A DNA stretch of 46,613 nucleotides from a virus. A model generated the notes under the pieces. It had not been told where the DNA came from. It worked only from the letters and a program-made list of their open reading frames with translations, and did no database searches. The stretch spans positions 1 through 46,613 of IMG/VR virus record IMGVR_UViG_3300045996_002799; one strand, given 5' to 3'. Within the stretch, counting starts at the first letter, position 1. The number at the start of each line of letters is the position of its first letter. The position numbers and the translations under genes are program-made. Below are positions 18,784-42,433 of the stretch, piece by piece.

Positions 18784-19482
18784 ATGGGCTGGTCGGCAGC
18801 ACTTCTTGGCGAGATCTTGGCACCTGCCATCAAGGCTGTGCTGCGTCCGATCATGCGTGTTCTGGGAAGATGGATGCGGAAGCACATCTCCCTGAAGCAG
18901 ACCCTCGAACTGAACCACGAGATCGACTCGAAGATGACCGAGCTTCGCGTCCGATCCGGCGCCCACCGGGTGTGCCTGTTCCAGTTTCACAACGGCGGCG
19001 TCTTCTCCAACAAGAAGCCCCAGTTCCGCGTCGTCTGCACGAACGAGATGTGCGGCCCCGGCGTCGGCACCCACCCCGCCCTCGACCACCCCATCATGGC
19101 GTCCCGGGTGATCGACCTGATCTCCCCACTGTTCGCCCTCCCCGAACTCCCCGACGGCGGTTGCTGTCCGTTCCGCTCGCACATCAACAGGGAAATCTAC
19201 ACGATCGAAGTGTCCAAGATGCGGCAGGGCTTCGCGCGTCATATGCTGGAGCGGGCCGGTGTGTCCTGGGCCATGATCGCCGCCATCCATGACGAGGTCG
19301 GCTCCGTGGTCGGGTACGTGAAGATGGACTACTGCAACTTCGGGGGAGACGACCCCGAGATCCGCAACTGCACCGAGAACCCCTCGATGCTGTGCGTGCC
19401 AGGCGACGGGTGCCACCGCGTGCAGGCGATCGACAGTGCCGCGCTGCACATTGAGAATCTGCTGAACGAAGCCAAGCCGTAA
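18784..19482 (+). CDS. GAF-like phage protein with N-terminal amphipathic segment, 232 aa
   Basis: Residues 3-33 form a hydrophobic/amphipathic segment with basic residues at its end, so the protein may touch the membrane. The rest resembles a GAF-like fold found in uncharacterised phage proteins, with a core strand containing LFQFHNGG (about residues 61-68), a Cys/His-rich middle (CCPFRSH) and a final beta strand VVGYVKMDY. Which ligand it binds, if any, is unknown. The start has CGGGGG shortly upstream. It lies between virion genes and is followed 43 bp later by another gene of the same direction. Other possible roles are lysis timing or membrane attachment. The family call is tentative. 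Confidence 0.6.
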   Translation: MGWSAALLGEILAPAIKAVLRPIMRVLGRWMRKHISLKQTLELNHEIDSKMTELRVRSGAHRVCLFQFHNGGVFSNKKPQFRVVCTNEMCGPGVGTHPALDHPIMASRVIDLISPLFALPELPDGGCCPFRSHINREIYTIEVSKMRQGFARHMLERAGVSWAMIAAIHDEVGSVVGYVKMDYCNFGGDDPEIRNCTENPSMLCVPGDGCHRVQAIDSAALHIENLLNEAKP

Positions 19483-19525
19483 CCGGAATCGCGGCTGGTC
19501 GCAGGGACGAGAACGGACAAGGACA

Positions 19526-20728
19526 ATGATCAAGGGAAGCGGCCTCAAATTCCATCCGCTCTACTGGTCGTTCCACGATCAGTGGATCTATTTCACGAAC
19601 ATCTTCATGTCCCACTGGTACCACCACTGGGGCCACCTCCACTTCTTCCTGCTGGGGTACGACTTCTCCAAGGCCAACCGCGACGCCTTCAGCGGCCAGC
19701 AGCGGTTCCAGTTCACGGCGACCGACCTGTGGGGGCCTCGCAGCCTCGACCCCAACCAGGCCCGCCAGTACACCGTCATCGGCACCCCCAAGTGGTACTT
19801 CAAGGTGACCGAGCTTTGGCGCCGCGTCTTCGTCCAGCCGTGGGATACGGTCACCGACACCGGTCGCCGCGTCGGCGTGAAGTGGGACGCGAGCCCGAGG
19901 GACAAGGTCAAGGGCCCGTTCCGCGAGGGCCGACTCCCCGACGGCCAGACGTTCTACGCCCCGTACTGGCTCGCTGGCGCCCGCTCACTGCCGATCGAAT
20001 ATTTCAGGGACGCCTCCAACTCCCAAGCCAACCGGGAGAACTACGTGGCCGATCGCGCACAGGCCCTGCTGGGCGACGACTACGTTGACGAGACCTACAA
20101 CCTCCAGCACGGGGCCTCCCTCGAACACACCGAGCCTCCCCATCCGGCCGCCAAGCCCCCGTTCTCGGACGCCCTCTACATCCACCCGATCATCGAGTAC
20201 CAGGCGGTGACGCAGCTGGATTGGGAGACGCTGCCGTGGCGTCCGGCCGACGTCGCTGACATCAAGGACGCGACCAACACCTACGGCGACGGGTGGAAGG
20301 TGGAAGTCACGGTGCCGTTCAAAGATCCGGCCACCGGCATCTACCGCAGCCCCTTCACCACCGTGCCCAACACCGTCCTGCCCTTCGGCCAGTACAACGA
20401 ACTGGTGCTGCCTGGGAGCCGCAAGCTGGTGCCCCTCGACAAGCGGCTGAAGCACCGTGAGGCGTCGTACGCGCCAGAAAATCCCGAGGGCCCGCTCGAT
20501 CTGCCCGAGGAGAAGTCCCAGCAGATCCTGACGGAATGGCACAACCCGTGGGGCGAGGCGGGCTCTGGGGGCCGCATCGTGCAGCAATGCCTCGGCGGCG
20601 TTGTGCAGGCGAGGGCCAAGGTCATCCTCGAACACAAGATGGGCGGGCGCCGACAGGTGACCGTCGAGAGCACCCAGTATCTGCCCACCACCGACTTCTC
20701 TGGCAGCGACCAGGATCAACCAGCATGA
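19526..20728 (+). CDS. Unknown protein, 400 aa, aromatic-rich N-terminus
   Basis: No family is recognised. The first 45 residues are unusually rich in Trp, Tyr, Phe and His (for example WSFHDQW, SHWYHHWGHLHFF), after which the sequence is soluble and Pro-rich. Clear ribosome site (GGACAAGGACA before the ATG). Its stop overlaps the start of the protease gene by 4 bp (ATGA), so the two are translationally coupled and may act together; it could be the protease's substrate, inhibitor or partner (inference). Probably a virion or assembly protein by position. Confidence 0.65.
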   Translation: MIKGSGLKFHPLYWSFHDQWIYFTNIFMSHWYHHWGHLHFFLLGYDFSKANRDAFSGQQRFQFTATDLWGPRSLDPNQARQYTVIGTPKWYFKVTELWRRVFVQPWDTVTDTGRRVGVKWDASPRDKVKGPFREGRLPDGQTFYAPYWLAGARSLPIEYFRDASNSQANRENYVADRAQALLGDDYVDETYNLQHGASLEHTEPPHPAAKPPFSDALYIHPIIEYQAVTQLDWETLPWRPADVADIKDATNTYGDGWKVEVTVPFKDPATGIYRSPFTTVPNTVLPFGQYNELVLPGSRKLVPLDKRLKHREASYAPENPEGPLDLPEEKSQQILTEWHNPWGEAGSGGRIVQQCLGGVVQARAKVILEHKMGGRRQVTVESTQYLPTTDFSGSDQDQPA

Positions 20729-21393
20729 TCGCCACGCTCAACAACCCCGTCGTGGAGCGGTGGCTCGCCACGCAGGGCGTGGGCGTCCGCGTGGTGGTGC
20801 TCGACTCCGGCTTCGCCAAGGGCACGCCCGGCGTCTACCCCGTGGAGATTCAGAACTTCACGAAGCCCACGGGGGGCACCGACCCGACCCACGGCACCCG
20901 CGTAGCCCAGGTGATCGGAAGCTCCCTGCCGTCCTGCCCAGGCGTGGCCCCACAATGCAACCTGTACCTCGGCACCGTCGTCGGGCAACTGGAAGCTGGC
21001 TGGAGATCGCTGCACGACGCCCTCGACTGGGCCATCAAGATCCGGGCGGATGTGCTGAACATGTCGTTCGCATGCGCCATGAGCGACCCCGTGGCCGAGG
21101 CGAAGCTGTTGAGGCTGGACGCGATGGGGTGCATCTGCGTGGCGAGCTACAACCCGCACCTTCACTGGCCGCACTCCAACCCGTTCGTCATCTCGGTTGG
21201 CGTGCTAGGCAAGCACCCTAGCACGGACTTGCAGGCGGTGGGAGCCAGCCCCGTGGCCATCCCCAACGGCACGGACATGTTCACGGGCACCTCGTCTGCG
21301 GCCGCCGTGGTGGCGGGAGTCGCCGCCTGCGCAAAAGCAAGCCGTCCGGTGATGTACCGGACGGCCTTTCTAAATGAGATCGCTGGGAAGTAG
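20725..21393 (+). CDS. Subtilisin-like serine protease (S8 family), 222 aa
   Basis: The three catalytic regions are in the usual order: Asp27 in VVVLDSGF, His56 in HGTRVAQV and Ser190 in FTGTSSAAAVVAG. Asn143 in VASYNP is a candidate oxyanion residue. The start at 20725 overlaps the previous stop (ATGA). Longer upstream starts would read through the previous gene. The protein is shorter than a typical subtilisin catalytic domain (about 270 aa), and has no signal peptide and no propeptide, so it probably acts inside the cell or in the particle. By position at the end of the virion operon it may mature virion proteins (inference); phage maturation proteases usually belong to other families. A hairpin with T-rich flanks lies inside its last codons. 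Confidence 0.85.
   Translation: MIATLNNPVVERWLATQGVGVRVVVLDSGFAKGTPGVYPVEIQNFTKPTGGTDPTHGTRVAQVIGSSLPSCPGVAPQCNLYLGTVVGQLEAGWRSLHDALDWAIKIRADVLNMSFACAMSDPVAEAKLLRLDAMGCICVASYNPHLHWPHSNPFVISVGVLGKHPSTDLQAVGASPVAIPNGTDMFTGTSSAAAVVAGVAACAKASRPVMYRTAFLNEIAGK
21335..21370. terminator. Bidirectional intrinsic terminator inside the protease 3' end
   Basis: Perfect 10-bp stem GCCGTCCGGT (21341-21350) / ACCGGACGGC (21356-21365) with a 5-nt loop. Rightward it is followed by CTTTCT; leftward by TTGCTTTT. It lies between convergent operons whose stop codons are 2 bp apart, but inside the rightward coding sequence, about 25 bp before the protease stop. It therefore fits best as the end of the leftward operon. 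Rightward termination here would give an mRNA without a stop codon. Confidence 0.8.
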
Positions 21394-21395
21394 GA

Positions 21396-21833
21396 CTACT
21401 CGTCCTCGTCTTCCTCCTCGTCCTCGTCGCCTTCTTCGAGGAATCCCTCGATGCCCTCGCCGACGACTTCATCCACCGTCGGCGCCGCCTCCTTTGCGGG
21501 GTCCCAATCCCTGATCGCCTTGAGGGCAACCAGTGCGAACGGGCACTCCTCGTTGGCACAACAGATCAGCACCTCCATGGCCAGCTGCTGAAAGTCCACG
21601 AAGTCGAATGCGTGGCGGACGATCTCGTCCCCCCCACCCAAACTGATGGTGATGAGGCCGACGGGGGCGCTGGCCGGTTCGCCGCTGTGCGTTTGGCCCG
21701 AGACCGTTCCGTTGGTGGCTTCGATGAACGTCGTCATCTTCGCCCGGACGCTGCTCTCGTCGTAGTTGAACTTGACGTCCTTCTCGGGACGCGGTTCGGG
21801 CGAGGGGGTGTAGTCGGTAACTTCTTTGGGCAT
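21396..21833 (-). CDS. Unknown acidic-tailed protein, 145 aa
   Basis: No family is recognised. Last gene of the leftward operon; its ATG overlaps the thyX stop by one base (TAATG), with AAGGAG four bases upstream. The last 16 residues are almost all Asp/Glu, giving a highly acidic tail. A pair of Cys (VLICCANEEC) sits near residues 88-96. Acidic tails of this kind can mimic DNA or regulate DNA-binding partners, but nothing in the rest of the sequence supports a specific role. Confidence 0.75.
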   Translation of the reverse strand: MPKEVTDYTPSPEPRPEKDVKFNYDESSVRAKMTTFIEATNGTVSGQTHSGEPASAPVGLITISLGGGDEIVRHAFDFVDFQQLAMEVLICCANEECPFALVALKAIRDWDPAKEAAPTVDEVVGEGIEGFLEEGDEDEEEDEDE

Positions 21834-22777
21834 TAGTCTCCTTCTCGTTTGGCACAGAGGAGCCCGAGGCGACCGAACTTCTCGTACGCCTCCTGCCGCT
21901 CCCGCTTGTTTTCTGACTTGATCACCGGCACCTCGAAGCTGCCCCAGCTATCGACGGTCGTTCGCTGGATGGCCTCGATCTCCAGTGCCGTGAGCCGCAT
22001 GCCACCCATGTGGTGGTGGTAGTCCATGAAGGCCTGGGCGGCCACGGGCACCATGGGCCTAATCAGGGCGTACATGGCGTCGGCGTAGTCGCGGATCTCC
22101 TGCTGGGCGTGCTCGTGCATCCGCAGGCCGAGGAAGTGAAAGAGGTTGTGCAGATCGATCTTCCAGTACCACTCTGTGTACATGTTCAGCGGGAGGCCGA
22201 CGCGGGCCTGCTCGCGGCCAACGCCGCGATCCAGGAATGTCGCGTAGTCCCGATACAGCTGGTCGCCCGACTCCTCGACCCAGTTGCAGAAATCCTCGGC
22301 AGTATGAGGGAGGACGTGGCCCTCGCTCACCTGCTTGTTCTTGTTCGACGCCGCGCGCACTTGGTCTGGCTTGGGCACCCACCGCAGATCCTTCATGACC
22401 GAGTACCTCGCCGAGGCCTCGTTCACATTGGCCGTACGATGCCTGATCCACTGCCTCGCGAGGAAGATCGGCATCTGGGCGTGAAACTTGAATTCCACCA
22501 TCTCCAGTGGCGTCGTGTGAATGTGCCGCATGAGGTAGCGGACCAGCCCCGCGTCCTCGTTCACCGTCTTGGTGCCGTCGCCGTACGACACCCTAGCCGC
22601 CTGCACGATCGCCGCGTCGGCGACCTGGCCTACCGGCAGGATTCGCGGCATCACATCAACGAGTGCCACGAACCCGTGCTGGCCATCGACGTCGATCTGG
22701 AGGCGTGAGTTGCCCCCCATAATGTCGTACGTCGGGTCGCCAAACGGGGTGGCGATGACCTTGCTGTTCATGTTCAT
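21833..22777 (-). CDS. thyX: Flavin-dependent thymidylate synthase ThyX, 314 aa
   Basis: Converts dUMP to dTMP using methylene-tetrahydrofolate, FAD and NADPH. The ThyX signature RHRTANVNEASAR is at residues 112-124 (pattern RHRx4NExSxR). The surrounding core also fits the family: YLMRHIHTTPLEMVEF before it, and LPLNMYTEWYWKIDLHNLFHFL after it. The start at 22777 (MNMNSKV) is chosen because GAAGGAAGAAG lies just upstream and it overlaps the previous stop by 4 bp; the frame stays open about 65 codons further upstream but that part overlaps the previous gene and lacks family similarity. ThyX is usually 220-250 aa, so this copy is somewhat long. It works with the NrdJ and dCMP deaminase genes in the same leftward region. 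Confidence 0.95.
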   Translation of the reverse strand: MNMNSKVIATPFGDPTYDIMGGNSRLQIDVDGQHGFVALVDVMPRILPVGQVADAAIVQAARVSYGDGTKTVNEDAGLVRYLMRHIHTTPLEMVEFKFHAQMPIFLARQWIRHRTANVNEASARYSVMKDLRWVPKPDQVRAASNKNKQVSEGHVLPHTAEDFCNWVEESGDQLYRDYATFLDRGVGREQARVGLPLNMYTEWYWKIDLHNLFHFLGLRMHEHAQQEIRDYADAMYALIRPMVPVAAQAFMDYHHHMGGMRLTALEIEAIQRTTVDSWGSFEVPVIKSENKRERQEAYEKFGRLGLLCAKREGD

Positions 22778-22959
22778 GTCGTCTTCTTCCTTCTTCGCCG
22801 CTTGGGTTGCCGGCGTGCTCGCTCGATGCAGTCGCGGATGACGTACGTCAGCACCGCTAGTTCGGGTCGGGAGAACTGATTGTGGACACCGACCTGGTTC
22901 TGATAGCGGCGGATGGCGGTCTCCGCAGCTTCCCAGGCACGTTGGCGTGAGTTCTTCAT
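22774..22959 (-). CDS. Small basic protein, 61 aa
   Basis: No family is recognised. Starts at 22959 (MKNSRQRAWEAAETA), overlapping the RdgC-like gene's stop by 4 bp, and ends overlapping the thyX start by 4 bp, so it is translationally coupled on both sides. It is mostly helical, with a strongly basic C-terminus (eight Arg/Lys in the last dozen residues), suggesting nucleic-acid binding. A longer upstream start is possible but would overlap the previous gene. Confidence 0.65.
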   Translation of the reverse strand: MKNSRQRAWEAAETAIRRYQNQVGVHNQFSRPELAVLTYVIRDCIERARRQPKRRRRKKTT

Positions 22960-24107
22960 GACTTGATCCAGCCAAAGATGTCCTTGATGACTTGGGGCCA
23001 CCCGTCGCTCGTCCGCAGGGCCACGAAGGTATCGAAGGCGTCGGTCATGCCCTTGATGAAGTCACGCAGGAGGCCGATCCGCTCCTCGAACAGGACGCGG
23101 GGCGACTCGGCGTCTTCGACGTCGGGCAGCTTCAAGCCACCGAAGGCGAAGCTCTCGGCGTCGAACGTGAACTCGTAGGCCGAGCCCGAGATCACCGACA
23201 TCATGCCCGCCTTGCGCGGCACCTTGCCGCTGGCCAAGGCCCGCCGCGTCTCGGGCAACCGGTCGGGGCCCGTGCCGGTGATGATGTGCTTGCCGGTCAT
23301 CCCGAACACGCATTCGAGGGACAGCCGCTTGTCGAACATGAGGGCAACCGTGTTGCCCATGAGCGTCTTGACCTCGTCGTCGATCGTGTGCGTGCGGGCG
23401 ATCGCCCACAGCAGGAACTCGTTGCCGAGGAACGCGCGGGAGTCAACGCTGGTGGCGACCCATGGGTACGCGGCCTGCTGGGCCTCACCCTCGGGGCCGT
23501 CCACGAACTTGGTGCCCCTCAGGTCGTCCCAGTCCTTGGATCGCCCCACGCGATCGAGGTACTGGCCGGCGACCTCGCCCGACGAGATCGGTCGCAGCGT
23601 CAGCGAGAACGTACGCTCGAAGATCTCGGCCAGCTTCTCGAACGTCTTGCCGTTGGCGTTGGCGTACACGCGGCCCTCCCGCAGATCCCACAGGACGGGG
23701 ACGACGCGGGAGCGGCGGTACTTGCCGGTCTTCCGCTCCTCCTCGACGAACTGGCGGACCTGATCCTTGATCTCCCGCTTCTGGGTCTTGGACAGGAAGC
23801 CGGACGGGTTCTGCGCCGCGGTGGCCGTCTCCAGCGTCACCTGGTGGCTCTTGCGGACGTCGGCGGGAACCTTGTTGGTGTCGATCCGCAGCCCGAAGTG
23901 GAGTGCGTCGGCGTACACGACGTTCTCGAAGGAGAACTCCTTGTCGGCGTGGTGGCGGGGGCCGACCCAGCCGTAGTTAACCTCCTCGTTGTCCTCGCAG
24001 ATGGCGTGCGAGTCGAGGCGGGACATCATGTCCTCGGTGGCCTCCTTGGGGGCCTGGCCACTGATGTCGAACTGGCGGAATGAAAACGAACCGTTTGTGA
24101 AAGGCAT
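22956..24107 (-). CDS. RdgC-like recombination-associated protein, 383 aa
   Basis: RdgC forms a ring around double-stranded DNA and restrains RecA in bacteria. Here the layout agrees with the family: an early GWVGP segment (residues 45-49), then a 'LSKTQKREIKDQVRQF' helix like the RdgC 'KKTEKDSLKDEV' helix, an Arg-rich strand, and the 'GRVYANANGKTFEKLAEIFERTF' block that matches the '[24 protein letters not shown]' region. The remainder diverges. Start at 24107 has AGGAG five bases upstream. It sits in one leftward operon with RecD2 helicase; the phage RecA is encoded in the rightward operon. A role in tuning recombination or protecting phage ends is inferred. Identity is by pattern recognition, not alignment. 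Confidence 0.7.
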   Translation of the reverse strand: MPFTNGSFSFRQFDISGQAPKEATEDMMSRLDSHAICEDNEEVNYGWVGPRHHADKEFSFENVVYADALHFGLRIDTNKVPADVRKSHQVTLETATAAQNPSGFLSKTQKREIKDQVRQFVEEERKTGKYRRSRVVPVLWDLREGRVYANANGKTFEKLAEIFERTFSLTLRPISSGEVAGQYLDRVGRSKDWDDLRGTKFVDGPEGEAQQAAYPWVATSVDSRAFLGNEFLLWAIARTHTIDDEVKTLMGNTVALMFDKRLSLECVFGMTGKHIITGTGPDRLPETRRALASGKVPRKAGMMSVISGSAYEFTFDAESFAFGGLKLPDVEDAESPRVLFEERIGLLRDFIKGMTDAFDTFVALRTSDGWPQVIKDIFGWIKS

Positions 24108-24115
24108 CGGATCTC

Positions 24116-24367
24116 CTAGATGACGCCCGGCGGCGCCGGGATTGGCTTGGGCGGATCGACGCGGACGCCGTCCACCGGCTTGGGGTATTTCTGAGTGAAG
24201 CGAGCCGAGAACGCATCGGGAGCGTAGAGCAGTGGAAGCGAATCCTCTACTGCCTCCACGACCCAGTCGCCCTTCTCGCCGACGTTGCCCGAGGGGTACT
24301 TCACCTCGGTGTCCAGCTGGTGGGCGTCCACCTCGGCACCGTCCGTGTTGTCGATGTACGTTGCCAT
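24116..24367 (-). CDS. Small phage protein with GDWVV-type domain, 83 aa
   Basis: Start at 24367 overlaps the upstream stop by one base (TAATG). The middle reads G-x-x-x-G-D-W-V-V-x9-Y-A-P-D-A-F-S-A-R-F-x-x-x-Y, the pattern of a small domain common in phages and often seen near replication genes, usually annotated as hypothetical. Function is unknown. Pro-rich C-terminus. Confidence 0.65.
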   Translation of the reverse strand: MATYIDNTDGAEVDAHQLDTEVKYPSGNVGEKGDWVVEAVEDSLPLLYAPDAFSARFTQKYPKPVDGVRVDPPKPIPAPPGVI

Positions 24368-24558
24368 TATCCTACTAGCTCCAAGACAGTGACCTTCTGA
24401 ACGGGGTTGATGTCCATCTTGAACCCGCGAATGATCGTGTAGGCCCACGTCGGGTTCTTGTTAATGAACTCTGTCACTTGGCTGGCGTCGGTGAACTCCT
24501 CCATGCCCGTGATCACCTCGTGCGGCTCATTCATGTCCCAGAAGACGTAGTATTTCAT
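24367..24558 (-). CDS. Unknown small protein, 63 aa
   Basis: No family is recognised. Start at 24558 has AGGAG six bases upstream. It begins MKYYVFWDMNEPHEV and has no signal peptide or membrane segment. One of a run of five short co-oriented genes downstream of recD2, typical of phage early accessory genes. Confidence 0.65.
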   Translation of the reverse strand: MKYYVFWDMNEPHEVITGMEEFTDASQVTEFINKNPTWAYTIIRGFKMDINPVQKVTVLELVG

Positions 24559-24567
24559 GTTCGACTC

Positions 24568-24774
24568 CTACTGCATCTGTGGTTCGAGTACGGCACGCTT
24601 CACCGCCGTCTCCATGCGACGGAGGCGACCGTAGTCCTTGCCCAGCAAGCGGAGCAGATTGCCGACCTCTTTCTTCCAGCAGATGATGGTGTCGGGCAGA
24701 TTCACGTCGTCCAGTTCGGCGGCCAGCTGATCCAGCTTGGCCAGCGTATTGTCGTCGGGTCGGATGCTACGCAT
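24568..24774 (-). CDS. Unknown small helical protein, 68 aa
   Basis: No family is recognised. Predicted mostly helical from its heptad-like Leu spacing (LAKLDQLAAELDDV, NLLRLLGKDYGRLRRM). Overlaps the previous gene by 8 bp; GAGG seven bases before the ATG. Confidence 0.65.
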   Translation of the reverse strand: MRSIRPDDNTLAKLDQLAAELDDVNLPDTIICWKKEVGNLLRLLGKDYGRLRRMETAVKRAVLEPQMQ

Positions 24775-25087: not shown

Positions 25088-25431
25088 TAGAACTCCACCT
25101 TCAGCAGGGACTTGGTGTTGATCATTCCGATGGACACCCACTCGTCATGCTTCTCGTCGTACTGGAGCATGAACATGGCGTCCGTGTCTCCGATCTCGGC
25201 AGAGGCACTTCCCCTAGCGTTGTCGATGCTGGTGATCTCGGTGAGATACCACCCGCCGAGCCCAGCACAGTGGATCTTGTCACCCAGCTTCAGGGAGTCG
25301 CGGCCCTTCATGGGTGCAGGCTCAGGGCTGACGTTCATGACGCCGATCCCGATCCTCTCGTAGGCAATGATGCCTACCTTCCACTCCTGCCCCTCGGCCA
25401 CCTCAGGCTTGACCATTGTCGGCTGTGACAT
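25087..25431 (-). CDS. Unknown protein, 114 aa
   Basis: No family is recognised. It overlaps the 3' end of recD2 by 29 bp. The first ATG at 25431 is preferred because GGAGAGGG lies three to nine bases upstream inside recD2; a second ATG at 25416 has no such site. The sequence appears beta-rich (LKLGDKIHCAGLGGWYLTEI), like a small barrel. Confidence 0.65.
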   Translation of the reverse strand: MSQPTMVKPEVAEGQEWKVGIIAYERIGIGVMNVSPEPAPMKGRDSLKLGDKIHCAGLGGWYLTEITSIDNARGSASAEIGDTDAMFMLQYDEKHDEWVSIGMINTKSLLKVEF

Positions 25432-27664
25432 TGACCCTCTCCGCTAGTCTGGTGTTCCGCTTCGAGACCTTGTTGTTCCGCACTGCCATTGAGATCGCCC
25501 CCGCGTGGCCGATCAGTACGACCAGTCGCCGCGTACGGGTAACCCCCGTGAACAGGAGGTTCCTCTGGAGCAGCTTGAAGTGCCCCGTGTGCAGGCAGAT
25601 GATGATCATGGGCGACTCGGAGCCCTGACTCTTGTGGATGGACATGGCGTAGCTCAGGCCCACGTCGATCCAGTCCTGCTTCTCGACCCTCACGTCGAGC
25701 CCGTCGAAGGAGGCGACGAACGCGGTGGCGTCTCCGTCCTTGTCCTTGATAAACTCGCGGATGATCCCCTGGTCGCCGTTGTACAGGCCGATGTCGTAGT
25801 TGTTGCGGCGGTACATGATCCGGTCGCCGGTGCCCCACCGCTCCCCGTTGAAGCGGGTGATCGAGTCGGAGGGGTTGGGGTTGATCACCGCCTGGATGTC
25901 GCGGTTCAGGGCCTCGACCCCAGCGTCGCCCTTCTTCATGGGCGACAGCACCTGGACGTCTTCCTTGGGGCTGAACCCCAGCTTCGTCGCGAGGAAGGAC
26001 GCGCACCACCGTGCCACGGCGTTCTGCTCGTGCTGTTCGTTCTTCTCGATGAACAGGAAGTCGGTGTTGGGCCAGCCCCGCGCGAGGACGATCTCGCGGC
26101 TGAACCGCTGCATCTCGGGGACGTGGCCGAGGTTGATCGTGTGGGCGTGCTTGATGATGTCGCTGTTGGCGGCCTGGCGGTGGATCTCGGTGAGGCGGAT
26201 GGAGCCGACGTCGTTCATCCGCAGCAGATCCCGCAGCACGGCGCCGGGGCCGATGCTGGGCAGCTGGTCTTGGTCACCTACGAACACGACGACAGCACTG
26301 GGCTTGATGAGGGACAGCAGCCAGTTCAGCATCTTGACGTCCACCATGGACGCCTCGTCCACGATGACGACGCCGTCCAGCATGACCTCCTCGATCTCGG
26401 CCAGCCCCTCCCTGACCATCTTGGTGATGGCGTGCAGCTTGCGGTGGACTGTCACGGCCTGGTAGCCCACGACCTTGGTCATCCGCTTGGAGGCACTGCC
26501 CGTCGGCGCCATGAGGTGCACCTCGACGCCAGCCGAGACGTAGCCGTTGACGATGGCCTTGGTGATGGTCGTCTTGCCGGTGCCGGGCCCGCCGGTCAGC
26601 ACGGCGAGCTTGGACTTCATGATCAAGGTGACGGCTTGCTTCTGGGTGTCGTCGAGGGCCACGTCGGCAGACTCAATGGCGGCCTCGATCAGCTTGGCCA
26701 TGTTGTCGCCGGACAACTTGCTGGGCATCGGAGTGTCGATGATCGTCCGGAGGCGGCGGGCCGCGCGGCACTCGACCTCGTACATCTCGGGGGAGTAGAG
26801 CTTGCCCTCGTCGTCGGTGATGATGCCCTGCGCGATCGCCTGGTCGGTGGCCGCGTTGACGAGGGCGTGGTCGATCTGCTTGTGTTCGAGGAACCTGATG
26901 GCCTCGCTCACGAGATCGCCACGGTAGACGAAGCAGTCTCCGTCCCCGTCTTGGTGCTCGTCCATCAGGTGCCGCAGGGCGCCGATGATCCGGATGATGC
27001 TGGTCTGCTCCACGCCCATGCCCTGGGCGACCTCGTCGGCACTCTTGAAGCCGACGCCGTGGATGTCGCGGGCGAGGCGGTAGGGGTCTTCGCGGATCAT
27101 GGAGACCGCGTCGGCACCGTACTTGTTGAAGATCTTGGCGACGAAGGCGGGGCCGATGCCGACCTGTCCGGCGAACACCAGCAGATCACGCAGGGCCCGC
27201 TTCTCCTTCCACTCGGCCTTGATCCCCTCGACGCAGGTCTTGCCCAGCCCATCGACCTCGTACAGGCGGTCTGGTTCCTCGTCCAAGATCCGCAGGGTGT
27301 CCATGCCGAACTTGGCGATGATCTTCTGGGCTCGCACCTCCTTGACGAACTTGACGTTCTTGACGAGGTACCTGAGAACCTCGCTCACGGTCTGCGGCTC
27401 CAGTAGTGTGAAGTGGGCCACCTTGACCTGGGGGCCGAACTTGGGGTTGAACTCCTGCTCGCCAGAGATGCTCACCCGCTGGCCCTCGCCGATGTCCGCG
27501 AGCGAGCCCACGAGCGTCATCCGCCTGTCGTTGCGGATGCCGGGGACGAAGATCCCCTCGTCCACCTTCATCTTCAGGATGCCGTACCCGCTCTCGGCAC
27601 TCTTGAACGTGACACGCTCAATGACCCCCGACAGGTTGATCTGGTTTTGAAGGGAGGGAAGCAT
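25403..27664 (-). CDS. recD2: RecD2-type superfamily 1 DNA helicase, 753 aa
   Basis: 5'-3' DNA helicase of the RecD2 (RecBC-independent) type, acting in recombination or repair. It has the family layout: an N-terminal OB-like region (residues 8-95), a helix-hairpin-helix region (about 100-220), then the motor. Walker A GGPGTGKTT is near residue 355, Walker B VIVDEASM near 425, the Q-loop region VFVGDQDQLPSIG near 455, motif V YAMSIHKSQGSE and motif VI GVTRTRRLVVLIG near 680-720. Length is normal for the family. The ATG at 27664 lies only 8 bp after the -10-like box of a repeated promoter motif and has no clear Shine-Dalgarno, so the message may be leaderless. Leads the set of small genes running to thyX. 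Confidence 0.93.
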   Translation of the reverse strand: MLPSLQNQINLSGVIERVTFKSAESGYGILKMKVDEGIFVPGIRNDRRMTLVGSLADIGEGQRVSISGEQEFNPKFGPQVKVAHFTLLEPQTVSEVLRYLVKNVKFVKEVRAQKIIAKFGMDTLRILDEEPDRLYEVDGLGKTCVEGIKAEWKEKRALRDLLVFAGQVGIGPAFVAKIFNKYGADAVSMIREDPYRLARDIHGVGFKSADEVAQGMGVEQTSIIRIIGALRHLMDEHQDGDGDCFVYRGDLVSEAIRFLEHKQIDHALVNAATDQAIAQGIITDDEGKLYSPEMYEVECRAARRLRTIIDTPMPSKLSGDNMAKLIEAAIESADVALDDTQKQAVTLIMKSKLAVLTGGPGTGKTTITKAIVNGYVSAGVEVHLMAPTGSASKRMTKVVGYQAVTVHRKLHAITKMVREGLAEIEEVMLDGVVIVDEASMVDVKMLNWLLSLIKPSAVVVFVGDQDQLPSIGPGAVLRDLLRMNDVGSIRLTEIHRQAANSDIIKHAHTINLGHVPEMQRFSREIVLARGWPNTDFLFIEKNEQHEQNAVARWCASFLATKLGFSPKEDVQVLSPMKKGDAGVEALNRDIQAVINPNPSDSITRFNGERWGTGDRIMYRRNNYDIGLYNGDQGIIREFIKDKDGDATAFVASFDGLDVRVEKQDWIDVGLSYAMSIHKSQGSESPMIIICLHTGHFKLLQRNLLFTGVTRTRRLVVLIGHAGAISMAVRNNKVSKRNTRLAERVNVTADNGQA

Positions 27665-27671
27665 CGGCCCG

Positions 27672-27701
27672 TTGATCGGCCAATTCCCCCCGCCTACCCA
27701 A
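27672..27701 (-). promoter_or_regulatory. Repeated promoter-like motif, copy 1 (recD2)
   Basis: Leftward TTGGGTA (27695-27701), 17 bases, GATCAA (27672-27677), 8 bp before the recD2 ATG. The box is extended as GGCCGATCAAC. Same spacing as four other copies. Confidence 0.6.
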
Positions 27702-27710
27702 TCGCAGACA

Positions 27711-27744
27711 AAATAAAAGCGGGCACCATGTCACTGGTGCCCGC
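27711..27744 (-). terminator. Intrinsic terminator after the PEP-CTERM gene
   Basis: Perfect 10-bp stem GCGGGCACCA / TGGTGCCCGC (27719-27744) with a 6-nt loop, followed leftward by TTTTATTTTG. It ends the PEP-CTERM unit about 30 bp after its stop and lies just upstream of the recD2 promoter motif, so the two units are separated. Confidence 0.9.
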
Positions 27745-27776
27745 CGACCTAAAGAGAAAACGCGAACCGGTTTATT

Positions 27777-29273
27777 CTACCGCCGCCTGCGACATAGGCA
27801 ACACCCCACGGCGATGGCGGCGAGGCCGCTGGGCTCGGGGACGCTGTTGGGGATCAGGCTCGTCACCGCGTCCCACTTCACGCTGGAGGTCTTGTTGACG
27901 TCGTCGAACAGGCCCCACTGGCCCCACTCCGTCTCGGGGCTCACGAGGCCGAAGACGTTCCACACCCCGCCGCCCGAACGCCTGTCCCACTCGGTGATCA
28001 GGTACTTCTCCAGTTCGCCCAGCCTCGGGTCGTCCTGCATGGCGATGTGGGTCGCGAGGTTTCTCTGGCCGTAGAAGGAGCCGACGGCGGCCTCGTAGCT
28101 GTCCAGGGTCAGGCCGTAGTAGTCGGCCATGTTCTTGCTGCGATCCACCCACGTCAGCAGGCTCTTGTCGATGAAGCTGCGCAGCTTGGAGAAGATCACG
28201 TCGGCCGAGTCTCCGCTCAACTCGCCGAGGTCGTTCTCGGAACCCGGAGCGTAGGGCGCCACGGCGACGTGCCACTTCTGGCCGGTCTTCTCGCCGCGAA
28301 GGTCAACGCCCTTGGCCTTGAGCCTCTCGGCCATCCAGTACGTCCAGTATTCGTTGGCGATGAACCCACCCAACACCGGAACGACCCGCTTGGGGTCGTT
28401 GAACTCGCTGTTGAAGATGGTGACGGCACGCAGATGCTGGTCGGCGCTCCGCTGGGCCATGCGGGCCGTGTCGCTGGACTCGGTGAGGGTCGGGTCGTTG
28501 CGGGCCTGCTGGAGGTTCCAGGTGCCGTTGGCCTGGTCGCCGCCGTTCCATAGTTCATTGCCGTACTCGATGTGCACGCGGAGGGTTGGCTTGAGGTTGG
28601 CCTTCAGGTAGCGTGCGAACTGCCGGATGTAGTCGTCGCTGGCCTTGACAGGGATGTTCACCCATGCGTCGGCGTGCGCGTGGTTGGAGAGGGCGACGAT
28701 GTTCTCGTAGGGCACACCTTGGTGCCGCGTGTAGTAGAAGTCCTGCGGGCGGTCGGCCCACTCCACGACGCCGACGGGCGTCCCGCTGCCGGTGGTGCCC
28801 ATCCAGTCCATGTACCGCACGACCGAGTTGCGTCCCGTCAGTGCGCGGTCCACCTTGTCGAGGAATGCTTTGCGGAACGGGGTGCCTTGCACCGCATCCG
28901 CCGCCAGCACCTGGATGTTGTTGGCGCCATTACGCTGGAGCGTCCAGATGCCTCCCCCGCCCGGATCGGATCTCTTGTGGAAGATGCCCTGACCGGCGCC
29001 GGTGACTTCGAGGTAGGAGTTGCCGCCGCCCGTGATGGTGGGGGCGGGGCCACTCCACGTCGCCTTGAAGTCCCCGTCCGGATACCCGTTCAGGTAGGAC
29101 AGGTTGTTCTGGGGGTCGAAGTTCCCCGCCATGTTCGAGAAGAAGGCCGAGTTGTAGTAGTACGACTGGCCATCGAAGTTGAAGCCGATCTTCGGCGCGG
29201 CGCCAGCTGCACAGGCCATGGCGAACAGTGCGACCAGAACCACCAACGTGAACAGAATCTTCAGTGCTTTCAT
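27777..29273 (-). CDS. Exported PEP-CTERM surface protein, GH-A-like, 498 aa
   Basis: N-terminal Sec signal peptide (MKALKILFTLVVLVALFAMACA). C-terminal PEP-CTERM sorting signal: VPEP at about 478-481, a hydrophobic stretch, then RRRR at the very end. In bacteria this tripartite tail is cut by a membrane exosortase of the host. The middle resembles secreted carbohydrate-active proteins of clan GH-A type; EYGNELWN near residue 236 looks like the Asn-Glu acid/base strand, and LITEWDRR near 440 could supply a second acid (inference). Start at 29273 is chosen for the spacing to AAAGGGG; the adjacent ATG at 29276 is possible. Flanked by terminators and preceded by its own promoter motif, so it is an independent cargo gene. 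Function may be surface modification, phage exclusion or matrix binding; it is unproven. Confidence 0.85.
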   Translation of the reverse strand: MKALKILFTLVVLVALFAMACAAGAAPKIGFNFDGQSYYYNSAFFSNMAGNFDPQNNLSYLNGYPDGDFKATWSGPAPTITGGGNSYLEVTGAGQGIFHKRSDPGGGGIWTLQRNGANNIQVLAADAVQGTPFRKAFLDKVDRALTGRNSVVRYMDWMGTTGSGTPVGVVEWADRPQDFYYTRHQGVPYENIVALSNHAHADAWVNIPVKASDDYIRQFARYLKANLKPTLRVHIEYGNELWNGGDQANGTWNLQQARNDPTLTESSDTARMAQRSADQHLRAVTIFNSEFNDPKRVVPVLGGFIANEYWTYWMAERLKAKGVDLRGEKTGQKWHVAVAPYAPGSENDLGELSGDSADVIFSKLRSFIDKSLLTWVDRSKNMADYYGLTLDSYEAAVGSFYGQRNLATHIAMQDDPRLGELEKYLITEWDRRSGGGVWNVFGLVSPETEWGQWGLFDDVNKTSSVKWDAVTSLIPNSVPEPSGLAAIAVGCCLCRRRR

Positions 29274-29283
29274 CATATCCCCT

Positions 29284-29313
29284 TTGATCGTCAGATATTG
29301 CCCAAGTACCCAA
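29284..29313 (-). promoter_or_regulatory. Repeated promoter-like motif, copy 2 (PEP-CTERM gene)
   Basis: Leftward TTGGGTA (29307-29313), 17 bases, GATCAA (29284-29289). The base before is again A, giving ATTGGGTA as in the recD2 copy. The box ends 7-10 bp before the start codon, overlapping the ribosome site. Confidence 0.6.
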
Positions 29314-29323
29314 TCAACCGGAT

Positions 29324-29362
29324 AAAAAACCAAGGCCCAGTGAACGAGTCACTGAGCCAGGG
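29324..29362 (-). terminator. Intrinsic terminator after the phosphoesterase gene
   Basis: 9-bp stem with one G-U pair (leftward GGCTCAGTG / CACTGGGCC), 7-nt loop, then a TTTTTT run after a short spacer. It lies 22 bp after the stop of the phosphoesterase gene and directly before the PEP-CTERM promoter motif. Confidence 0.88.
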
Positions 29363-29383: not shown

Positions 29384-30787
29384 CTAGTTCACATTCAGCA
29401 GGGCGTCGTACTGGTTGAACGACAGATGCCCCGCGTACCCGTTGCTCCGGCTCCACAAGTAGCACTCGGCCGCCCTTTGACCCTTCACGTAGCCCTTCTT
29501 CGCGTGCCAGGCATCGGTCGCCGACAGGCTCGGGAGGATGCGGGTGACGACTCCGTGATTGGTGTCGCCGGCGGTGAAGCGGTGCTCCTTCCGCTTGTGA
29601 AGGTGACCGAGGTGCCACTCGCGGTGGATCGTCTCGGCCCACAGCTGCGGCTGCTCGACGGCCATGAGGGCTGGCAGATCATTCACCTTCTCCTCGTTGC
29701 CGTGCGAGAAGCCCAGAAGGTTCACGCCGTACTTGACGTACTTGCGAAGCGGGGGCGAGTTGTCGATCTCGACCTCGGCACAGTTGTGGTACCAGGACTC
29801 CAGCGTGTCGCCGAGGTAGAAGCACCGCGTACGATCGTGGTTGCCCGGCACGATGACGACCCGCACATTGGCCCGACCTCGGAGCCGGTCGATCGCCTCG
29901 ACTAGGATCTTCTTGCCCTTGAGGTACATCTTCTGCCAGCGGCTGTCGGCGTCCTGGCGGGTGCCGTTGGCGGTCTCGTTCAACTCGTTGTCGGTGTGGA
30001 GGAAGTCGTTGCCGATGGGGAACAGGATCTCGTCGATATTGAGGCCAGAGGTGCACCGGAGGAAGTGCTCGATGGCACCGTGGAACGACTGGATGCAGAT
30101 CTTGGAGTCGTAGTTGGTGCCGGTCTCCCGCTCCCACGCCAGCTTGCCGAGGTGGAGGTCGGGACAGGACATCTCGACCATAAACCGGTCGCCTTCGTCG
30201 TTGGGGAGCCGCACGAGGGGCTCGTATCGCGGTGCGTGGGCCTTCATCATCTCGATGATGTCCAGACCCTCCTCACGCGCGCTCGGTCCCTTCTTGCGTT
30301 CGAGCCACAGCTTGACCGACCACATGGCGACGACGGTGGCCGTCCTCACCCAGTGCGACTTCTTCGCTTCGGGGTCTTTGGGGTAGGACGAGTCGCGGAA
30401 GAAGCCCTCGTACCGCTTCACCTCCGTGCGGTTGATCTCCCACAGCTTGGTGTCGATCTGGGCTTCCTCGATGGCGGCTGCGAGGGCGCCCTCCTGGGTG
30501 TCGGCACGGACGCAGGTGACGCTGGCGTACTGCTTGTCGCCAGACGTGTTGTAGACCACCTTCGGCTTATCGGACACCTCGGCCTCAGGTTCACTGGCGG
30601 GCGAGTCAGCGGCCTTGCACTGGTCGGTCAGTCGCTTCTGCAATCGGAGGTACCGGTTCCTCACTGCGTTCCTGCTGAGGCCATCGAGATGTCTTCCGAT
30701 CTCACTGAACGTCATCTTGTTGACGTTCTCAAGCAGGAAGGCGTCATCCTTCCCAGTCCAACTGTGGTCGCCGTTTTCTCGTCCCAT
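29384..30787 (-). CDS. Calcineurin-like metallophosphoesterase with N-terminal HTH, 467 aa
   Basis: Residues 8-52 form a SANT/Myb- or HTH-like motif (W-x-G-K-D-D ... FSEIGRHLDGLSRNAVRNRYLRL), suggesting DNA or protein binding. From about residue 205 the metallophosphoesterase motifs appear in order: DLH (SCPDLHLGK), GND (near 248), GNHD (VPGNHD, near 315), SHG and GHLH (near 395). These bind two metal ions to cleave phosphoester bonds. Such proteins are frequent in phages and may act on nucleic acids or nucleotides; the exact substrate is unknown. It has its own transcription boundaries: an nrdJ terminator before it and a terminator after it. A GATCAA box lies 23 bp upstream but lacks a matching TTGGG half. 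Confidence 0.85.
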   Translation of the reverse strand: MGRENGDHSWTGKDDAFLLENVNKMTFSEIGRHLDGLSRNAVRNRYLRLQKRLTDQCKAADSPASEPEAEVSDKPKVVYNTSGDKQYASVTCVRADTQEGALAAAIEEAQIDTKLWEINRTEVKRYEGFFRDSSYPKDPEAKKSHWVRTATVVAMWSVKLWLERKKGPSAREEGLDIIEMMKAHAPRYEPLVRLPNDEGDRFMVEMSCPDLHLGKLAWERETGTNYDSKICIQSFHGAIEHFLRCTSGLNIDEILFPIGNDFLHTDNELNETANGTRQDADSRWQKMYLKGKKILVEAIDRLRGRANVRVVIVPGNHDRTRCFYLGDTLESWYHNCAEVEIDNSPPLRKYVKYGVNLLGFSHGNEEKVNDLPALMAVEQPQLWAETIHREWHLGHLHKRKEHRFTAGDTNHGVVTRILPSLSATDAWHAKKGYVKGQRAAECYLWSRSNGYAGHLSFNQYDALLNVN

Positions 30788-34364: not shown

Positions 34365-34373
34365 CTGCACCAG

Positions 34374-34403
34374 TTGATCGGCCAATTACCGGCCTGTTCC
34401 CAC
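34374..34403 (-). promoter_or_regulatory. Repeated promoter-like motif, copy 3 (nrdJ)
   Basis: Leftward GTGGGAA (34397-34403), 17 bases, GATCAA (34374-34379) in the context GGCCGATCAACTGG. The -35-like half is the weakest of the five; the -10-like half is identical to copy 1. It lies between the sigma-like gene and nrdJ, about 60 bp before the nrdJ ATG. Confidence 0.55.
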
Positions 34404-37384: not shown

Positions 37385-37843
37385 TTACTCGGGCCAGGGC
37401 GAGGTGGCCTCGATGGTGCCGTAGGCGGCGGCGACGATGAATGACCTCTGCTCGTCGGTTAGCGGCACATCCAGCTTCAAGTCGTCACCGACGGCGGGGA
37501 GGCCGAGCCGGACGCGGAGTTCGGTGAGGAGGAGGTGCATGGCGATCAGCTGGCGTGACGACAGTCCCAGCCCCTGCAACTGCTTCACGACCTGGTCAGT
37601 GAGGCCGCGAACAGTGATCGCCTCGATCTTGGTGACCCTGATTACCTCCGTGGCGACGGCACGGATGCCACGGGCCAGTTGGTGGGCGGCGTCGTCACTG
37701 GGGCTGGCGACGAGGGCGAGGCGGGTGGTTGTGGCGGCCGTGAGTTGGACGTCCTGTTCGCTGGTCAGGGGAGCGGTGGCGGACGAGCAGCCGACGGTGG
37801 ACACGAGGACGAGCGAGGCGATGAGGGCGGCGATCAGCTTCAT
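37385..37843 (-). CDS. Probable lipoprotein, 152 aa
   Basis: Start at 37843 (MKLIAALIASLVLVSTVGCSS) has AAGGAG five bases upstream. The N-terminus is a short signal peptide followed by a lipobox-like TVGC with Cys at residue 19; Thr at -3 is less usual than Leu. The mature part is helical with no recognised domain. First gene of the leftward region and the first product of the promoter motif at 37881-37910, so probably expressed early and placed in the host envelope. Candidate roles are host-surface change or exclusion (inference). Confidence 0.78.
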   Translation of the reverse strand: MKLIAALIASLVLVSTVGCSSATAPLTSEQDVQLTAATTTRLALVASPSDDAAHQLARGIRAVATEVIRVTKIEAITVRGLTDQVVKQLQGLGLSSRQLIAMHLLLTELRVRLGLPAVGDDLKLDVPLTDEQRSFIVAAAYGTIEATSPWPE

Positions 37844-37865
37844 GGATTCTCCTTGGGGGAACGAA

Positions 37866-37877
37866 GGTCGTACGACC
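37866..37877. repeat. 12-bp perfect palindrome, candidate operator
   Basis: GGTCGTACGACC, lying 4-15 bp after the -10-like box at 37881 and 23 bp before the lipoprotein ATG, about where transcription would begin. The position suits a repressor site. Its half-site ACGACC(C) recurs in the repeat before the sigma-like gene. Confidence 0.45.
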
Positions 37878-37880
37878 CAG

Positions 37881-37910
37881 TTCATCGGCCACTTGTCGCC
37901 GCGTGCCCAA
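37881..37910 (-). promoter_or_regulatory. Repeated promoter-like motif, copy 4 (leftward operon)
   Basis: Leftward TTGGGCA (37904-37910), 17 bases, GATGAA (37881-37886) in the context GGCCGATGAACTGG. About 38 bp before the first leftward ATG, with a good ribosome site in between: a normal promoter geometry. Confidence 0.65.
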
Positions 37911-40771: not shown

Positions 40772-42433
40772 ATGATCAGATACGGCACGACATGTTCGGG
40801 AATCGAGTCGCCCACGCAGGGATGGGAGATCCTTGGGTGGGAGCCCGTGTTCTTCTCGGAGATCGAGGAGTATGCGTCGGAGGTGCTGGCCCAGCGGTAC
40901 CCCGAGATCCCCAACCTAGGTGACATGACGGCCGAAGACTTCCTCGAACGGATCAACGCACTGGGCGGCGTTGACGTTTTCGCCGGAGGCACGCCGTGCC
41001 AGGGCTTCTCCCTCGCTGGCCTGCGTGGCTCCCTTTCCGACGACCGCTCCAACCTGTGCCTGCGGTTCGTCCAACTCGTGCACGGGATCAAGTCAGATGA
41101 AAAGCAAGGCGTCAAAATCGCAGTCTGGGAGAACGTCGCTGGGTGCCTGTCCACCGCCGACAACGCTTTCGGCTGCATGCTCGCTGGACTGGTGGGAGAA
41201 GAACGACCGCTCATTCCATGTGACAAGGACACCGCCGACCGAAAGCTCGTTAAGCGGTACTGGAGCCTCGACAAGAAAACCGGAGAGTGGCGTTGCCGCT
41301 GGCCCGACGCGGGTATGGTTATTGGACCCAAACGTTCCGCCGCCTGGCGGATCATCGACAGCCAAGGCGTCGTGCCCCAAAGACGAGAGCGCGTTTTTCT
41401 CGTCAGTTTCCGCACTGAAGACGGGATCAATCCCTCTGCCGTGCTTCACGAGCCCGAAGCCGACCCTCTCGCGTATCTTGCTGGACTCGGTGGACGATCG
41501 TTATTTCCTGTCCCCAAAGGCGTGCCAGGGGATTCTGAACAGGGCGAAGCGTCGCGGGAGACAGTTGCCGCCCTTACTGCAAACGGCGTTGGAGCGAGCG
41601 GCCCAGACGACAACCAGGCCCAAGCCGGCCACCTGATCGCCGACCGCAAGGGCTTCCGCATGGTGGCCTTCGGCGAGTACGCCGACGACGACACGGCCTC
41701 CACCATGAAGGCCCGCGACTACAAGGACGTCACCGACATCGTCGTGGCCCCAGTCGCGGTGGATGTGCGTCACGGCAAGATCGACGGCCAGACGACGCAG
41801 ACCCTCCAGTCCAAGAAGGACGGCGGGTACGCCCTGAACTCCCAGCCGCTGGTGCTCCAGCACAAGCCCATTGGGTTCGACTGCAAGGCTACCGCGTGTA
41901 CCCCGCACGAGGAACTCGCACCCACCATGCGGGCGATGGGCTTCGACGCCTCCCACGCCAACGGCGGCGGACAGCTGGCCATAGCAGTGGACGTCCGCAA
42001 CGGCCTGATCACCGGCGATCGCACGCCCCCACTCATGGCTGGCGCCGGGGATGGGCGGGGCATCAGCTACAACTGCGTCCCCCTCGCCGTCGTCGAGCGG
42101 ACGCGCAACGGGGAGAAGCAGGCCGAGTGGCAAGAGGACCTGTCCTACTGCCTCACCAACCCCGGTGACGGGAGCCGCAATGACTCCCGCACAGTGTGCA
42201 CCACGGACATGATCGTCCGAAGACTCACGCCCACGGAATGTGAGCGTTTGATGGGGTTTCCCGACGACTTCACCCAGATCCTCTGGAAGGGCAAGACGCT
42301 GGAGAACTGCCCCGACAACGGCCGCTACAAGTGCCTCGGGAACTCGATGGTGACCTGGGTGATGCACTGGGTGGGTGTCCGGATCGAGATGGTCCGCCGC
42401 TTCCACTGGAACCTCTGGAGGGCCGATGAGTAA
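40772..42433 (+). CDS. C5-cytosine DNA methyltransferase, 553 aa
   Basis: Phage Dcm-type enzyme. Motif I TTCSGIESPTQGWEILGWEP at residues 6-25; catalytic Cys75 in GGTPCQGFS; ENV at 119-121; QRRERVF near 200; final motifs RRLTPTECERLMGFP and RYKCLGNSM near 480-525. The long part between about 215 and 480 is target recognition region with loosely repeated AF-x-G/TL elements, as in multi-specific phage methylases. The 98 bp upstream are pyrimidine/AT-rich and no Shine-Dalgarno is visible. Codon use is less GC-biased at 41,080-41,600 than in neighbours, suggesting a mosaic gene. It probably guards phage DNA from host restriction; its stop overlaps the nuclease start. Confidence 0.93.
   Translation: MIRYGTTCSGIESPTQGWEILGWEPVFFSEIEEYASEVLAQRYPEIPNLGDMTAEDFLERINALGGVDVFAGGTPCQGFSLAGLRGSLSDDRSNLCLRFVQLVHGIKSDEKQGVKIAVWENVAGCLSTADNAFGCMLAGLVGEERPLIPCDKDTADRKLVKRYWSLDKKTGEWRCRWPDAGMVIGPKRSAAWRIIDSQGVVPQRRERVFLVSFRTEDGINPSAVLHEPEADPLAYLAGLGGRSLFPVPKGVPGDSEQGEASRETVAALTANGVGASGPDDNQAQAGHLIADRKGFRMVAFGEYADDDTASTMKARDYKDVTDIVVAPVAVDVRHGKIDGQTTQTLQSKKDGGYALNSQPLVLQHKPIGFDCKATACTPHEELAPTMRAMGFDASHANGGGQLAIAVDVRNGLITGDRTPPLMAGAGDGRGISYNCVPLAVVERTRNGEKQAEWQEDLSYCLTNPGDGSRNDSRTVCTTDMIVRRLTPTECERLMGFPDDFTQILWKGKTLENCPDNGRYKCLGNSMVTWVMHWVGVRIEMVRRFHWNLWRADE

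Follow-up and report, generated by a model that had tools for sequence, protein, structure and literature searches.

A separately bounded phage cargo gene for a GH-A-type protein with a borderline PEP-CTERM tail

Introduction

Does a phage carry, as cargo, a glycosidase-like protein addressed to the surface-sorting machinery of its host? The question is raised by one gene in the IMG/VR virus record IMGVR_UViG_3300045996_002799, classed as linear, which we analysed over its whole length of 46,613 bases (henceforth the window). An initial annotation had described this gene from its sequence. We confirm the observation on the gene. The interpretation then given is supported in part, namely in its reading of the gene as cargo that is separately bounded and encodes a GH-A-type protein addressed to the surface. 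Our best explanation, to which we give an even chance, is that the product is an exosortase-sorted hydrolase of clan GH-A that remodels host exopolysaccharide (EPS) at the cell surface.

Results

The cargo gene fills a site that is empty in related phages

The cargo open reading frame runs on the minus strand from 29276 to 27777 and comprises 499 codons. It begins with ATGATG, giving a product of 499 aa, or of 498 aa from the second ATG, as first proposed. The gene and its two neighbours are as follows.

27777..29276, minus strand: cargo gene, predicted secreted GH-A-type protein with a C-terminal PEP-CTERM-like tail (open reading frame and translation, fold, family)
29384..30787, minus strand: DNA repair exonuclease (phrog_704), phage core gene, upstream neighbour of the cargo gene (PHROGs match)
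25403..27664, minus strand: RecD-like helicase / exonuclease V (phrog_4412), phage core gene, downstream neighbour of the cargo gene (PHROGs match)

Besides these two neighbours, PHROGs matches in the window identify a class II ribonucleotide reductase and a DnaB-like helicase; the RecA-like, ThyX-like and DNA methyltransferase genes were assigned by sequence reading alone. The largest proteins of the window had no match in the PHROGs search, and no tRNAs were found in the window or in its relatives. The structural module occupies positions 167-21393, and the cargo gene stands apart from it, alone among replication genes. A subtilisin-like (S8) protease gene at 20536-21393 (plus strand), which overlaps the preceding gene and is conserved across the phage group, ends the structural module.

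Single-protein scans with the neighbours of the cargo gene found nothing, and sister phages were reached with a ribonucleotide reductase alignment, which gave 79 viral loci. Four of these, on three distinct phages (L100/L175, L142 and L152), keep 13-14 window genes in window order; with longer contig stretches, nearly the entire window is syntenic with these phages at ~25-56% identity. In all three, the exonuclease gene directly neighbours the RecD-like gene; the aligned ends lie 127-179 bp apart and enclose no gene, and the same interval in the window measures ~1.7 kb and is filled by the cargo gene. The comparison supports the description of the cargo gene as an insertion between two conserved phage genes, and hence as the self-contained, moron-type cargo that the initial annotation had taken it to be.

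A DNA methyltransferase-like gene at 40772-42433 (plus strand) separates the RecA-like gene from the gene that follows. Those two are adjacent in the three sister phages, which points to a second insertion.

The gene was also said to have its own copy of a repeated promoter motif and terminators on both sides. The following elements were found.

29284..29313, minus strand: promoter-like motif TTGGGT-N17-CGATCAA of the cargo gene (three window copies)
27672..27701, minus strand: the same motif before the RecD-like gene, at a distance from the start codon equal to that of the cargo copy (motif count)
46533-46562, plus strand: third copy of the motif, near the right end of the window, which presumably precedes a gene beyond the window
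27718..27745, minus strand: terminator-like hairpin directly 3' of the cargo gene, 11 pairs, near-perfect (hairpin scan)
29334..29358, minus strand: terminator-like hairpin after the upstream exonuclease gene, 10 pairs (hairpin scan)

The three copies of the motif are each exactly 30 nt long, against 0.01 copies expected. The TGGCCGATCAAC half of the motif recurs before the ribonucleotide reductase gene (34373-34384). The two hairpins (27745-27718 and 29358-29334) are the strongest minus-strand candidates between 21300 and 39000, although the number of terminator-like sites in general is only modestly above chance (16 seen, 11.3 expected). Hairpins with T-runs, judged by eye, also stand in the gap between the exonuclease and the RecD-like gene in L100 and L152, so the one that follows the exonuclease gene here may be an ancestral terminator. 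The cargo gene thus has a putative promoter and putative terminators of its own. As first claimed, it could be expressed independently of the phage early genes as far as these predicted transcriptional bounds go; its motif is nevertheless identical to that of the RecD-like gene, with which the cargo gene is probably co-regulated. Its position between two copies of the phage leader suggests recombination at the leader as the route of entry. Among 15 genes, the cargo gene ranks third in closeness of codon usage to the remaining phage genes, and its GC3 equals that of the phage core, which argues against recent acquisition from a host of different composition.

The product has a signal peptide and a tail that is PEP-CTERM by layout and borderline by score

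Two sorting elements were located at the ends of the product.

29193..29276, minus strand: predicted Sec-type signal peptide MMKALKILFTLVVLVALFAMACAAGAAP, ~residues 1-28 (hydrophobicity against all window genes and sequence; cleavage site set by eye)
27780..27842, minus strand: candidate PEP-CTERM tail VPEPSGLAAIAVGCCLCRRRR, residues 479-499 (PF07589, TIGR02595 and pattern position)

The N-terminal hydrophobic stretch ranks first among 30 window genes (12-residue mean 3.25), in agreement with the secretion proposed earlier. In the predicted model the body appears soluble, and transmembrane segments other than the signal peptide are absent. The signal peptide contains a lipobox-like AMAC, by which lipoprotein processing is possible. 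A strong N-terminal hydrophobic segment is otherwise present in one window gene only, at 37385-37885 (minus strand), which encodes a small predicted lipoprotein with a lipobox-like VSTVGC and has a weak homolog in L100.

The last 21 residues have the layout VPEP-SGLAAIAVGCCLC-RRRR, in which a PEP motif, a hydrophobic segment and a basic cluster follow one another to the extreme C-terminus; the hydrophobic part is short, at 13 residues. On the whole protein PF07589 scored 14.0 bits (E 0.055 over 24,736 models) and did not reach its gathering score of 20.7, and TIGR02595 reached 16.5 bits, against a cut-off of 16, only when the last 27 residues were scanned alone. These E-values are counted over 18,950-24,736 models, so the single-model probability for the tail is ~1e-6. 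Genome-wide family searches that included PF07589 did not list the cargo protein. At E<=10, PF07589 matches one of the 61 aligned members of the body family, the cargo protein itself. The tail had been called complete; this holds for its layout, and its profile score leaves it a borderline PEP-CTERM sequence.

The protein is otherwise similar to the known substrates of the PEP-CTERM/exosortase system (EpsH, XrtA; TIGR02595/PF07589), with which it shares a signal peptide, the C-terminal Pro-Glu-Pro, hydrophobic stretch and basic cluster, and a Cys-poor body (PMC1569441). There is no Cys in the 450 mature residues, against 1.19% across the other phage genes, and Haft et al. described PEP-CTERM proteins as Cys-poor (PMC1569441). 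It differs from those substrates in being phage-borne and in its borderline score.

PEP-CTERM proteins are present in other phages

A look for relatives in other phages had been named as a check; PF07589 detected two further phage-borne proteins.

L417:9827-10378 (genome ~139826-140377), minus strand: 183-aa PEP-CTERM protein of G009, IMG/VR 3300005512_000002 (PF07589 27.7 bits)
L411:7219-7950, plus strand: 243-aa PEP-CTERM protein of G692, IMG/VR 3300022753_002174 (PF07589 25.4 bits; TIGR02595 18.6)

G009 is a sister phage of the window. Its protein carries a signal peptide, starts MRTLIIAIVLAAASSLSG, ends VVPEPASLVMFVLGLGLLVAGLRPGQARLSKSSDP and scores above the Pfam cut-off; the gene lies downstream of terminase-like genes and adjoins a ParA-like gene. 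A search of 246 planctomycete genomes gave no match to this protein. G692 is unrelated to the window phage. Its PEP-CTERM gene is divergently oriented between tape-measure-like and tail-fibre genes, and portal- and Clp-protease-like genes lie on the same contig. The portal is nearest to those of Verrucomicrobia phage P8625 and of Akkermansia phage Moulinsart; in addition, a 42-nt stretch of the contig exactly matches the end region of the record for Moulinsart. Like the cargo protein, both proteins combine a signal peptide with a PEP-CTERM tail on a phage contig; unlike it, they are short, with bodies unlike that of the cargo protein, to which both are unrelated, and occupy other genome positions.

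A pattern scan of IMG/VR for PEP...RRRR ends gave 62 DNA matches, of which five were in frame and two hydrophobic, and both hydrophobic ends, one of them that of the G692 protein, belong to open reading frames with an N-terminal hydrophobic, signal-like segment. With a second such scan included, two of 17 in-frame PEP...RRRR ends are hydrophobic among the matches listed. A scan for the CCGGAGCC-type tail returned only hydrophilic or weakly hydrophobic in-frame ends among the matches listed. In G693 (IMG/VR 3300015259_000005), an open reading frame at L256:3136-3681 (minus strand) has a signal-peptide-like N-terminus, a hydrophobic LPEP...SRRRR end and a Cys-rich body; the PF07589 search did not list it.

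These data bear on one alternative, that the cargo product is an ordinary secreted glycosidase whose tail is a chance hydrophobic and basic inner-membrane end, or that it is a lipoprotein. The sub-threshold Pfam score, the shortness of the hydrophobic part and the AMAC motif would all fit such a protein, and the homologs that we examined manage without a PEP-CTERM tail. We nevertheless consider this account unlikely, because PEP, hydrophobic stretch, RRRR and signal peptide co-occur on a body without Cys, because hydrophobic PEP...RRRR ends are as rare as the scans indicate and both come with a signal-like N-terminus, and because an unambiguous PEP-CTERM protein is encoded by a related phage (G009).

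The proteins of G009 and G692 indicate that the window is not alone among phages in encoding a PEP-CTERM protein, and use of the exosortase route appears to be recurrent. One reading, which we judge evenly poised between right and wrong, is that exosortase substrates are a recurrent cargo class in several phage lineages infecting exosortase-bearing bacteria, where they would act during infection to remodel the surface or matrix of the host; three instances would then come from the window, G009 and G692, with differing bodies each fitted with a host PEP-CTERM address tag.

The body is a predicted clan GH-A barrel with both catalytic glutamates

The body of the cargo protein fell into none of the Pfam, NCBIfam or PHROG families, and sequence comparison with the PDB gave nothing significant. 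An AlphaFold2 model built from a 61-row alignment (pLDDT 86, pTM 0.87) has the strand order of a (beta/alpha)8 barrel, with a predicted beta-rich insert between beta-1 and beta-2. The best PDB matches in Foldseek were GH51 arabinofuranosidases (6zt7, 2vrq and 6d25; E 4.5e-9, TM ~0.45), followed mainly by GH5, GH1, GH39 (4zn2) and GH10, which are members of clan GH-A. Model and structure search therefore agree with the GH-A-type fold proposed from the sequence. The resemblance to GH51 is at the level of fold, with 12-14% identity and no Pfam or NCBIfam GH match; the missing family assignment, this low identity and TM, and the insert distinguish the protein from known clan members.

In clan GH-A the acid/base Glu follows beta-4, preceded by Asn, and the nucleophile Glu lies in beta-7. 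Counterparts of both were located from the alignment and the model.

28554..28556, minus strand: codon of Glu241, predicted acid/base (Asn240-Glu241 after beta-4; strand 234-238)
28092..28094, minus strand: codon of Glu395, predicted nucleophile (beta-7; strand 390-398)

Both glutamates are unchanged in 61 of 61 aligned sequences, and we regard it as likely, not certain, that the enzyme is active. The cargo protein departs from the family at positions that are >90% conserved (N162 to T, G397 to A), and the QH that follows the YEGG motif (GGQH after the nucleophile) is absent from it. With several family-conserved positions changed, activity could be altered or lost.

This divergence near the active site would suit a second alternative, in which sorting proceeds as we propose and the protein, with little or no catalytic activity, binds glycans at the surface, masks or alters receptors and so excludes superinfecting phages. 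Surface-exposed exclusion proteins are known as phage cargo, an example being the Ltp lipoprotein of Streptococcus thermophilus phages (PMC3952083). The retention of the barrel and of both catalytic glutamates argues against a mere binder, and we hold this account to be improbable.

The body is a member of a large, unnamed family of bacterial proteins

The body falls in an unnamed bacterial family of GH-A-like proteins with >550 genome loci, to which it is homologous at 25-37% identity (for example WP_306035508 from Shinella and the cyanobacterial WP_013334405). Hosts of the family include Planctomycetota, Verrucomicrobiota, Armatimonadota, Cyanobacteriota, Pseudomonadota, Bacteroidota and others. 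A look for relatives in planctomycete and verrucomicrobial genomes had been advised, and for the body they were found; none of the homologs checked (the best 80 genome loci and the planctomycete set) ends in a PEP-CTERM tail. Some members use other C-terminal sorting signals instead (T9SS in 5/61, RTX repeats in 1/61). Inheritance of the tail from a PEP-CTERM-bearing branch of the family was considered and rejected, because no such branch occurs among the same 80 loci or in the planctomycete set. In the family tree the cargo protein forms a divergent, long, unplaced branch. The Shinella member is plasmid-borne and flanked by O-antigen ligase and polysaccharide-export genes, which points to exopolysaccharide as the setting of the family, and family genes are located in exopolysaccharide clusters in some cases.

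Among viruses, INPHARED gave no close relative of the cargo protein and IMG/VR only distant ones; distant viral homologs exist that have neither signal peptide nor PEP tail, some of them within long multi-domain proteins. One distant homolog, also without either signal, is found in the sister phage G008, at 92702-94714 and thus at another genome position. The idea that the cargo gene moved from this homolog within the group was unsupported, since the two share ~30% identity and are not sisters in the tree, where the window row is a long branch. The homolog lies in a cargo region of G008 (L184:14703-19787 and L185:2-3986) that also encodes an M14 carboxypeptidase carrying a signal peptide, a Cys-rich precursor in which a TGTGG motif resembles a leader, and a fusion of C39 peptidase with DUF1573. 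The host-like genes of G008 (C39 peptidase/DUF1573) had only weak planctomycete matches.

The multi-domain viral homologs and the displaced G008 copy might suggest a virion or lysis component, such as a tail-associated depolymerase, in place of cargo acting from the infected cell, which we think very unlikely given the signal peptide, the isolated position among replication genes away from the structural module, and the empty site in related phages.

Discussion

Proposed role of the cargo protein

We infer, as the best explanation of these observations, a host exosortase, cleavage of the tail, release at the surface, activity on EPS and a benefit to the phage. Following the PEP-CTERM/exosortase model (PMC1569441), the product would be exported through Sec and stay anchored in the inner membrane through the C-terminal tail until an exosortase, presumably supplied by the host, removes the tail. 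A GH-A glycoside hydrolase would thereby be delivered to the cell surface or the EPS layer, where, to judge from the family of the body, it would most likely trim or cut host EPS during infection. Progeny could then be freed from the matrix, and would neither re-adsorb to nor share a cell already taken. The phage most likely benefits through EPS trimming, which would either free its progeny from the matrix or leave the infected cell a poor target for other phages.

Envelope-acting phage cargo is already known. What makes this gene notable is that such cargo would here take an exosortase route, one that appears to recur. Surface-acting morons such as the superinfection-exclusion lipoprotein Ltp are likewise extra genes with products exported to the host envelope (PMC3952083); the cargo protein differs from them in its exosortase-type C-terminal tag and its glycosidase body. 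Searching open PubMed Central by title and abstract, we found no report of phages that use the exosortase pathway or of phage-borne PEP-CTERM proteins, and the word phage is absent from the original PEP-CTERM paper (PMC1569441).

If the proposed role is correct, phages draw on a surface-sorting system found widely in Planctomycetota and Verrucomicrobiota, one whose own function is poorly understood, and the cargo would offer a handle on what exosortase substrates do. It would also point to candidate EPS-active enzymes in a large family without a Pfam name. A PEP-CTERM cargo would, moreover, imply an exosortase-bearing host and so give a clue to host range.

Host and exosortase

A conserved structural-module protein that marks the phage group (alignment A5) had no match among 392 Planctomycetota and 289 Verrucomicrobiota genomes, in a search run without a positive control. 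Akkermansia muciniphila encodes an exosortase along with 21 PEP-CTERM proteins (PMC3048395). We found exosortase in 39 of 99 Planctomycetota and 64 of 96 Verrucomicrobiota genomes; it is thus common in both phyla, which makes an exosortase-bearing host plausible and goes no further.
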